NCBI RefSeq assembly: GCF_002156875.1
Contig: NZ_NCSY01000004.1
Location: 248,001 to 312,000 of the forward strand
Reading direction: 5' to 3'
DNA length: 64,000 nucleotides
DNA from: Bacillus sp. EAC
GTDB taxonomy: Bacteria > Bacillota > Bacilli > Bacillales > Bacillaceae_G
The notes under the pieces are model-generated. The model saw only the letters and a program-made list of their open reading frames with translations, had not been told where the DNA came from and did no database searches. The first letter of the stretch is position 1, and each line of letters opens with the position of its first letter. Of the stretch, positions 13,344-18,265 are shown one piece after another. The translations under genes were made by a program, and so were the position numbers.

Positions 13344-13381
13344 GAAAAAAGTGATTGTCATTATGACAATCACTTCAATTT
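13344..13381. terminator. Bidirectional terminator
   Basis: AGTGATTGTCA (13350-13360) pairs with TGACAATCACT (13364-13374) with a 3-base loop. An A-run on the left and a T-rich run on the right serve the AEC gene and the convergent small gene. Confidence 0.88.
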
Positions 13382-13383
13382 TT

Positions 13384-13644
13384 TTATTTATTGTTTTCTT
13401 TATAATATAATTCCAGTTTATATTTCAGGCTTTCAATCTGCGACTTTTGAGAAATTGGAAACCCATTTTTTCTAGTTTTTACACTACACATCCAACATGA
13501 ACAATGGACTTTTCCCTTCGCAAAATAGCCAGGATACTTTGCTGAATAGCCCAAAAAATTTACGAGTTTAAGTTTTCGCGAAATAACTCTTTGTCTTTGA
13601 TACCTAAAATAACTACGGTTTCTTTTTTGAAGATGATGATTCAT
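13384..13644 (-). CDS. Small basic Cys-rich conserved protein (CSCWMC motif), unknown function
   Basis: This 86-residue, very basic protein has an N-terminal Arg/Tyr/Gln-rich stretch (KRNRSYFRYQRQRVISRK), a central KGKVHCSCWMCSVKT with a CxC-x2-C cluster and adjacent His, and a Lys-rich C-terminal helix. The Cys cluster looks like a zinc knuckle. I recall similar small proteins of unknown function being scattered through several bacterial phyla, but I cannot name the family. Size, charge and the Cys cluster resemble ribosome-associated or RNA-binding proteins. AGGGAG lies 9 bases before ATG. The start is embedded in a large RNA structure (13646-13730), which suggests translational control. 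Confidence 0.75.
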   Translation of the reverse strand: MNHHLQKRNRSYFRYQRQRVISRKLKLVNFLGYSAKYPGYFAKGKVHCSCWMCSVKTRKNGFPISQKSQIESLKYKLELYYKENNK

Positions 13645-13645
13645 T

Positions 13646-13730
13646 GGTTAACACTCCCTAGAAAATGGCTCAACCTGTAAAAGTCCCTAGGGTAGTACTA
13701 GACGATTACAGGTTGAGTATTGTGTTAACC
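13646..13730 (-). promoter_or_regulatory. Structured 5-prime leader, candidate cis-regulatory RNA
   Basis: Read on the minus strand, GGTTAACAC (13730-13722) pairs perfectly with GTGTTAACC (13654-13646), ending one base before the ATG. Inside it, CTCAACCTGTAA (13717-13706) pairs perfectly with TTACAGGTTGAG (13680-13669). The 25-base apical loop contains CCCTAGGG (13685-13692), and its CCCTAG can pair with CTAGGG (13656-13661), which overlaps the Shine-Dalgarno sequence. This gives two nested stems plus a possible pseudoknot that would mask initiation. There is no T-run, so it is not a terminator. It matches no riboswitch I recognise. Confidence 0.6.
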
Positions 13731-13799
13731 CTATGTGAAAATAAATTCAATGACATCTACTCCTTAAAGGCTGTTTTTCTATTCTATTAAACATAATAC

Positions 13800-13827
13800 A
13801 GTATATTTTATTTTTTTATATAGTCAA
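13800..13827 (-). promoter_or_regulatory. Probable sigma-A promoter for the CSCWMC gene
   Basis: On the minus strand, TTGACT (13827-13822) and TATACT (13805-13800) are separated by 16 bases. Transcription would start near 13793, giving a leader of about 150 nt that contains the full structure at 13646-13730. Confidence 0.5.
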
Positions 13828-13856
13828 ATCGGACGATTGTAAGGGAGAAAATACGC

Positions 13857-14429
13857 ATGCTAAATTCAGAAAAAGATATTATAAACCTTGTAAAAAATGA
13901 CAAATGGATGATGGATATATTAAACACGGCAAAAGAATTACAATTACCTGATTGGTGGGTTTGCGCTGGATTTGTTCGCTCGAAAATTTGGGATACATTA
14001 CATGGATTTGATGAAAGGACCATCATAGACGATATTGATGTCATTTACTTTGATCCATTCAATGTAGATGAGATGGTAGAAAAGGAATATGAAGAGATGT
14101 TAAAAAGTAAACTTCCAAATCTTCCTTGGTCAGTAAAGAATGAAGCGAGAATGCATTTAATTAATAATTTACCACCTTATCACTCTTCTATTGATGCGAT
14201 GTCGAAGTTTCCTGAAACAGCTACTGCACTTGGCTTGAGCATAAATGAAATGAGCGAAGTAGTTTTAGCAGCACCATGTGGTGTTGAGGATATATTAAAT
14301 TGTGTCATAAAGCCAACCCCTACTTTTCTTCAAACTAAAGAACTGATTCCAATTTTTGATGAGAGAGTTTCGAAAAAGAATTGGAATAAAAGGTGGACAA
14401 AAGTAAAACTTGTAGTTGAAAGTTATTAA
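13857..14429 (+). CDS. Nucleotidyltransferase-family protein (COG3575 type)
   Basis: This 190-residue protein resembles the small nucleotidyltransferase-like family with the motif WWVCAGFVRSKIWDTLHGF near residue 32 followed by DDIDVIYFDP, which supplies the Asp-x-Asp metal site. The C-terminal part contains AAPCGVEDILNCVIKPTPTF, also typical of the group. It probably has the polymerase-beta nucleotidyltransferase fold; the substrate is unknown. The gene is divergent from the CSCWMC gene with about 210 bp between them. AAGGGAG precedes ATG 13857. Confidence 0.8.
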   Translation: MLNSEKDIINLVKNDKWMMDILNTAKELQLPDWWVCAGFVRSKIWDTLHGFDERTIIDDIDVIYFDPFNVDEMVEKEYEEMLKSKLPNLPWSVKNEARMHLINNLPPYHSSIDAMSKFPETATALGLSINEMSEVVLAAPCGVEDILNCVIKPTPTFLQTKELIPIFDERVSKKNWNKRWTKVKLVVESY

Positions 14430-18004: not shown

Positions 18005-18265
18005 GGATGTTTTCGTAAAGTTCGTTGCTTTTAAATATGGAGTTTCGTACATTTCTACTCCAGGTTGCTCGCTTTCCGTGGGGCGGGAGCAAAGCCACAT
18101 GGGCCCACACGATGTGGGTCATGCATGCGTTACGACAGGACGTCGTGGTATTAGCATGCCTACCTTTTTGATCATTTCGGGGTCTCACCTGTCCCGCATC
18201 TCCCGCAGGAGTCACGCACCTTCCGTTCCAATTTTTTTCATTATTGAGCGTTCGCTTTTAAAACC
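18005..18265 (+). mobile_element. MITE-like repeat element, subfamily II, degenerate copy
   Basis: A GC-rich palindromic element in AT-rich DNA. It shares with the element at 52411-52683 (opposite strand) the left end GTTTTCGTA, the core CCAGGTTGCTCGCTTTCC, and an inner hairpin with two GCATGC arms (about 18121-18126 and 18153-18158) enclosing GACAGGACGTC. The left end is GGATGTTTTCG; the right end is weak (AAAACC near 18265). No exact flanking duplication remains. It starts in the T-tract of the upstream terminator. There is no coding capacity; short frames crossing it are not genes. Confidence 0.6.

Follow-up and report, generated by a model that had tools for sequence, protein, structure and literature searches.

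The most familiar leader-peptide attenuators belong to antibiotic resistance genes and amino acid operons. In attenuators of the trp/his type, the position of the ribosome on a leader ORF sets competing RNA states, with completion of the ORF turning expression off and an earlier pause turning it on. In the translational attenuation of erm genes, a stem that hides the Shine-Dalgarno sequence (SD) is considered to open when a ribosome stalls on the leader, according to PMC5118997. Two further papers describe the RtcR-controlled rsr-yrlBA-rtcBA RNA repair operon of Salmonella, which is induced by damaged tRNA (PMC7790460), and the tRNA-rich regions of T5-like phages, which counter tRNA-cleaving defences (PMC11555353).

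In the window, i.e., the whole 64,000-nucleotide stretch of Bacillus sp. EAC DNA that was analysed, an 86-aa Cys-rich ORF is preceded by a leader that is probably a translational attenuator run by a leader peptide. It would share with the trp/his type the competing states set by ribosome position, finishing being off and earlier pausing on; however, it would act on translation start, not on transcription termination, and no single-codon run was seen. Like the erm type (ermC, ermB), as presented in PMC5118997, it combines a short upstream ORF with a downstream SD hidden in a stem, but its product is no known resistance gene, no conserved stalling peptide was found, the stop codon lies inside the inner stem, and there is a third pairing, that of the apical loop with the SD. 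In the RtcR operon, a transcription activator senses tRNA fragments (PMC7790460), whereas the proposed sensor here is the ribosome on the leader ORF, and the window's genome gave no match to RtcB. Our literature search, which included the motif HCSCWMC, T5.055, and leader-peptide attenuation with RtcB, returned no description of the leader or of the protein family. The parts follow one another on the minus strand as a promoter-like pair, a short ORF with its SD, two nested stems, the Cys-rich ORF, and a terminator-like hairpin:

13800..13827, minus strand: promoter-like -35/-10 pair (TTGACT, 16 nt, TATACT), from a consensus scan only
13760..13765, minus strand: SD (AAGGAG) of the upstream ORF, from the sequence
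13706..13750, minus strand: upstream ORF (leader peptide), start TTG at 13750, 14 codons MNLFSHRVNTILNL, stop TAA at 13708-13706
13722..13730, minus strand: outer stem, 5' strand GGTTAACAC, built from upstream-ORF codons (fold and covariation)
13706..13717, minus strand: inner stem, 5' strand CTCAACCTGTAA, holding the stop codon of the upstream ORF (fold and covariation)
13685..13692, minus strand: apical anti-SD CCCTAGGG (complementarity; own-versus-swapped test of loop and SD)
13669..13680, minus strand: inner stem, 3' strand TTACAGGTTGAG (fold and covariation)
13654..13661, minus strand: SD region CTAGGGAG of the Cys-rich gene, able to pair with the apical loop or, alternatively, with the 5' strand
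13646..13654, minus strand: outer stem, 3' strand GTGTTAACC, one base (13645) short of the ATG at 13644 (fold and covariation)
13384..13644, minus strand: 86-aa basic protein with an H-C-x-C-x2-C cluster, phrog_4499-like (ORF, profile match)
13348..13376, minus strand: intrinsic-terminator-like hairpin 3' of the gene, from a scan in which the plus strand also scores one

The preliminary description of this sequence had drawn two perfect nested stems, of 9 bp and 12 bp, and both are exact on the minus strand, the outer one having 9 bp and the inner one 12 bp, with base 13645 as the single base that it had placed between the outer stem and the ATG. The complementarity that it saw between the apical loop and the SD is also exact (13692-13685 against 13661-13654, overlapping the SD), and its impression of order beyond chance is borne out by folding: the predicted fold of 13745-13630 has -35.3 kcal/mol, compared with -19.6 (sd 3.2) for 200 dinucleotide shuffles, none of which is as stable (z = -5.0). 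As it had noticed, no T-run follows the two stems, the terminator-like hairpin being found only 3' of the gene, and the small, basic, Cys-rich ORF is present at 13644-13384 on the minus strand. It knew of no riboswitch of this form, and in Rfam no riboswitch, T-box, or other family gave a gathering-score match on the leader; the search of related leaders was equally without a match, the 10 weak matches (E up to 5), in five loci, all lying off the leader. What had been overlooked is a conserved upstream ORF, from TTG 13750 to TAA 13706, with AAGGAG at 13765-13760.

The promoter-like pair lies 5' of all the parts described, so a transcript of the whole leader is plausible, with the pair as a candidate promoter, but the consensus scan gave 4 such sites against 2.9 expected by chance, a number not above chance. 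The divergent neighbour (13857-14429, plus strand) is an NTP_transf_6 nucleotidyltransferase by Pfam, which tblastn over the collected related loci found only in the window's own genome and which has DNA matches in three congeners (G004, G006, and G010). The sole Rfam match at gathering score in the window is a Bacillaceae-1 sRNA (18104-18170, minus strand, 71 bits).

By eye, the outer stem, the inner stem, and the SD-complementary apical loop recur in related leaders with other sequences. The preliminary description had proposed that homologous leaders be compared for covariation, and this is found in both stems and in the loop-SD pair. In an alignment of 32 hand-chosen leaders (A7, the training set of model R1), 93.7% of the pair cells in the stems are standard, compared with 88.0% after shuffling of the 3' letters, and both-side changes occur in 11 of the 18 pairs (shuffled mean 5.9; slid controls 1-6, with 27-40% paired), counts that ignore shared ancestry and include near-duplicate leaders. 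The same leaders allow another pairing, which lengthens the 5' strand of the outer stem onto the SD; 91.5% of its cells are paired (84.9 when shuffled), and 7 of its 10 pairs have both-side changes. Alignment columns 15-17 are able to pair either with the 3' strand of the inner stem or with the SD, and at column 16 a U-A pair becomes C-G in six leaders, in both alternative pairings. The SD of the downstream gene is paired with leader-ORF sequence both by covariation (32 leaders) and by position in the window. When strands were exchanged between species in 53 hand-chosen leaders (20,000 permutations), own strands formed stronger duplexes than swapped ones in the outer stem (-11.8 vs. -8.3 kcal/mol), the inner stem (-28.2 vs. 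-17.7 kcal/mol), and the loop-SD pair (-12.4 vs. -9.1 kcal/mol), each beyond all 20,000 permutations, again irrespective of shared ancestry and with near-duplicates in the set. This swap test is conservative, since close relatives make swapped strands pair well. A stable fold would also suit a passive structure, i.e., a hairpin that dampens translation or makes the mRNA more stable with no ribosome control, but we consider this very improbable in view of the conserved upstream ORF and the mutually exclusive pairings.

The inner-stem sequence CCUGUAR:UACAGG is common, by eye, to Bacilli, Clostridia, and a Rhizobium phage, a conservation that exceeds the needs of pairing and hints at a bound factor. 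Ribosomal proteins are known to block their own translation by leader binding, and the preliminary description had taken such autoregulation as its model. In the form considered here, the basic Cys-cluster protein would bind its own leader, probably at the CCUGUAR:UACAGG helix, and block its own translation. The small, basic product and the shared helix fit this model, and the RNA is rarely found without the gene (15 of the 17 R1-positive genomes of the window's order have the protein). Yet autoregulation does not account for an upstream ORF that is conserved along with its SD and the position of its stop, and an E. coli copy (L137) differs in the helix sequence although an upstream ORF and an SD hairpin are present by eye, so that we regard this explanation as unlikely. 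The cis-acting leader RNA of the preliminary description is supported, whereas an autoregulated, ribosomal-protein-like leader as the main mechanism is not, given the conserved upstream ORF and a product for which neither Pfam nor NCBIfam gave a significant match, to a ribosomal protein or otherwise. The reading should shift from protein autoregulation to ribosome-controlled attenuation.

The frame of the upstream ORF was examined in 99 leaders, 89 of which have the stop motif; the 10 with no motif site (L082, L085, L096, L100, L101, L104, L107, L108, L021, and L029) include L029, which carries an upstream ORF despite the pattern miss, and several that are truncated or decayed. In 68 of the 89 leaders, the frame has a start codon preceded by an SD of 5 nt or more, whereas the other two frames have one in 0 and 5 leaders; for an SD of at least 4 nt, the numbers are 76 in frame against 3 and 6. 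The ORFs so defined (SD of at least 5 nt) have 12-20 codons, mostly 13-16, with a mode of 14, and under a looser site pattern 86 of 91 leaders keep the frame open over at least 12 codons, compared with 49 and 47 for the other frames. The stops among the 89 leaders are TAA (45), TAG (38), and TGA (4), while in two leaders (L019 and L023) the pattern picked the wrong frame. The predominance of UAA and UAG stops raised the idea of RF1-specific sensing, which was dropped because four leaders use UGA.

The leader peptides vary among clades (e.g., MDLLTTFLAIRLCL, MFVQVNSFITPGL, and MPYTITAVIPITLCP). Within clades, differences at the three codon positions number 297:242:312 (104 pairs), all positions changing about equally, and no conserved stalling peptide emerged from this comparison; nor was a shared codon or residue seen by eye in the leader ORFs. 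With no clear conservation of the peptide inside clades, neither a stalling motif nor a sensed amino acid can be pointed to, and the feature that is kept seems to be translation up to a fixed stop, rather than a peptide motif. Ribosome-controlled attenuation is suggested by the conservation of the upstream ORF and by the fact that the 5' strands of the stems consist of its codons and stop. At the position of the leader ORF, phage G has, by eye, MKIFSIDIIPSS followed by a stop, and Rhizobium phage RHph_TM61, which has no R1 match, has MGDDSSIIL with a stop between its stems. Two homologues (L031 and L032) keep the leader and upstream ORF and have lost the Cys cluster (KAHRKGAYRYEKK), and an orphan or decayed copy in genome G490 (L117) has the upstream ORF and both stems with no Cys-rich gene behind them.

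The SD of the Cys-rich gene can be covered in two ways, by an outer stem lengthened onto it and by the apical loop. With no ribosome on the leader, folding suggests that the SD would be mostly covered and the gene off. A ribosome paused in the middle of the ORF would break the outer stem while the inner hairpin keeps the anti-SD loop, so that the SD would open and the gene would be on, and a ribosome near the end of the ORF would leave the SD mostly covered again and the gene off. We modelled this by masking, at each codon, an assumed footprint of -13 to +14 of the P-site codon and refolding the remainder with RNAfold, free of pseudoknots, in 81 leaders (identical ones removed; L076, L086, L093, L094, and L095 left out for having no SD match by the pattern). 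Mean SD exposure starts at 0.24 in the ribosome-free leader, reaches 0.41 when the P site is 8 codons short of the stop, drops to 0.21-0.23 over the last three sense codons, and stands at 0.27 when the P site is on the stop. Single leaders differ: with the P site 8 codons short of the stop, 57% of them gain more than 0.1 in exposure and 14% lose exposure, whereas with the P site on the last sense codon 36% lose and 33% gain. For the window's leader, exposure is 0.49 when free, a value that the pseudoknot ignored by RNAfold would lower, and reaches a maximum of 0.55-0.58; it is close to 0 when the ribosome is three to five codons short of the stop and 0.17-0.39 once the stop is reached. In this model, therefore, the closing near the end of the ORF is clear in the window's leader and the opening is weak.

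The protein itself has no match in Pfam, NCBIfam, or PADLOC. Searches of 18 members against Pfam gave single weak matches only (best E 0.015), and their profile found nothing in the PDB at E up to 10, while 17 of the 18 members match phrog_4499, a phage family of unknown function in its library, whose entry is silent on any leader; the copy of phage DT57C matches it at E = 5e-41. The preliminary description had seen a zinc-like cluster, but zinc binding through H-C-C-C is rejected, only C48, C50, and C53 of the cluster being invariant over 72 sequences. A defence-system protein was also considered and rejected, with no PADLOC match among the three proteins scanned, as was a known fold, with an AlphaFold model of mean pLDDT 75.4 and pTM 0.44 and no Foldseek match at E <= 0.001 in the PDB or BFVD, so that the predicted structure settles nothing.

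A pattern-and-tblastn search of species genomes gave 73 related loci, which by their titles belong mostly to Bacillaceae and Paenibacillaceae and also to Clostridia, two Dehalococcoidia bins, and one Treponema bin. In the window's order the protein occurs in 27 of 397 genomes and 21 of 135 genera, and in the window's genus the gene is confined to 1 of 13 genomes, the window's own. Congener G006 has both flanking genes, with 493 bases (about 13375-13869 of the window) replaced by 82; leader and gene therefore look like one compact unit that was gained or lost. The R1 element stands directly before the gene in 57 of the 73 loci, which were fetched by protein (29 of these 57 are in training set A7), and 16 of the 73 have no R1 match. 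Outside the training set, R1 also stands before the gene of phage G (E = 1.9e-10); its weak minus-strand echoes are the mirror of the same hairpins. The phage G gene (gp99; L112 4953) is annotated as starting within the leader hairpin, but the conserved start is probably the ATG after GGAGGTATGATATC.

Across the window's order, R1 is found in 17 of 397 genomes, and the two that lack the protein are G490, an orphan leader, and G740, which looks like a plain terminator hairpin. Under the stricter filters of this R1 search, 12 of the 27 protein-positive genomes have no R1 match; 10 of the 12 show nested stems of other sequence by eye, and the remaining two, G476 and G582, look decayed. T5-type relatives of the protein occur in 502 of 50,697 phage records and 151 of 72,556 plasmid records. 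No nested stems of this kind were seen by eye at the gene of T5-like DT57C.

Enterobacterial copies appear to retain a less elaborate arrangement. The upstream ORF of the E. coli copy L137 (MPYRKHQHSELL, then a stop) holds GAACTCC, complementary by eye to the GGAGT of the gene, and the leader-plus-gene stretch of this copy is present to at least 80% in 1,259 of 5,426 complete E. coli genomes, with some match in 3,319. Among five records examined, four (L146-L149) retain the leader and then diverge or end shortly past the gene start, and L150 has the gene out of frame. In L136 and L138, the ORFs before the gene copies overrun the gene start (by eye). His-Ser-Glu is common, by eye, to the upstream ORFs of the Gram-negative and Gram-negative-phage copies L137, L142, L143, and L144 (MPYRKHQHSELL-stop, ...YRHSEFPRCP-stop, ...YRHSELL..., and ...HRHSEKLCKG-stop), and could be a stalling motif or a consequence of the pairing with the SD. 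On E. coli plasmid pEQ011 (L136), the copy is flanked by avs4 and a gene for an AbiGi-type antitoxin.

At most of the 73 loci, there is no RNA repair neighbour and no phage tRNA cluster. RtcB is encoded within 4 kb in 7 of the 73 bacterial loci, i.e., six of Paenibacillus (L056 a fragment) and one of an Oscillospiraceae MAG (a 28% tblastn match), and also on the Subdoligranulum (Clostridia) plasmid L006 (25% match). RlaP is found in L057 (fragment), L075, L077, L080, L105, and L006, and Band_7 in L057, L075, L080, and L006. The Paenibacillus clusters L057, L065, L075, L077, and L080 hold, in varying parts, Band_7, RlaP, a 521-aa protein with no Pfam match, and RtcB, followed by leader and gene. 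We consider it most improbable that the hairpin is a stable independent RNA merely adjoining the gene (e.g., a Y-RNA-like partner of the protein or of RtcB): the strong conserved structure and the RtcB neighbours at some loci would suit such an RNA, but the structure takes in the SD and stops at the start codon, its pairing partners covary with the SD region, the leaders tested have no Rfam match, and the upstream ORF is conserved.

In four of the seven phages examined (phage G, the T5-like DT57C and PRF-SP13, and RHph_TM61), the gene lies in or beside a tRNA cluster, and SP15, viewed beyond those seven, also has it near one. In the T5-like DT57C, PRF-SP13, and SP15, the family gene stands at the edge of the tRNA cluster. 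The SP15 copy (L159 5490-5801), 86.5% identical to that of DT57C, is not annotated as a family member in its record. The anti-retron ORF75 of SP15, as described in PMC11555353, was tried as a family member and rejected (190 aa, no CxCxxC, no significant similarity). Erwinia phage Bosolaphorus has a putative RNA 2'-phosphotransferase (gp83) three genes before the family gene (gp86), and Klebsiella phage FBKp24 and Pseudomonas phage OBP have no such neighbour annotated within 1.5 kb.

By guilt by association, the natural reading is that the protein serves RNA repair, tRNA binding, or ribosome rescue. Slowed ribosomes, e.g., after tRNA damage, would then be a sensible inducer, since the gene neighbours suggest a role in RNA or tRNA repair or in translation rescue; our confidence in both the inducer and the role of the protein is low. 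The same switch might instead be induced by a ribosome-targeting drug, with the protein shielding the ribosome as for erm, cat, and msrD. We think this doubtful, since no conserved drug-sensing peptide was found, neither Pfam nor NCBIfam gave a significant match to any resistance family, and those neighbours that are informative belong to RNA repair or to phage tRNA clusters, even though the architecture resembles the erm leaders in PMC5118997 and the spread is patchy (27 of 397 genomes of the order).

Overall, the leader would form a defined three-way RNA switch before an uncharacterised protein family in Bacilli, Clostridia, and phage G, and a Rhizobium phage and E. coli have likely relatives of it, judged by eye. 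The family is associated, over part of its distribution, with RNA repair genes or phage tRNA clusters. Such a leader makes it testable whether tRNA damage triggers it and what the protein does to tRNA or ribosomes. It is possible, as a tentative reading, that promoter, leader ORF, switch RNA, and Cys-cluster protein form a mobile cassette that senses slowed translation through the ribosome, e.g., upon tRNA loss to an anticodon nuclease, and makes a tRNA/RNA-repair or rescue factor. If so, phages would keep this factor beside their spare tRNAs, and some bacteria would keep it beside RtcB and RlaP.
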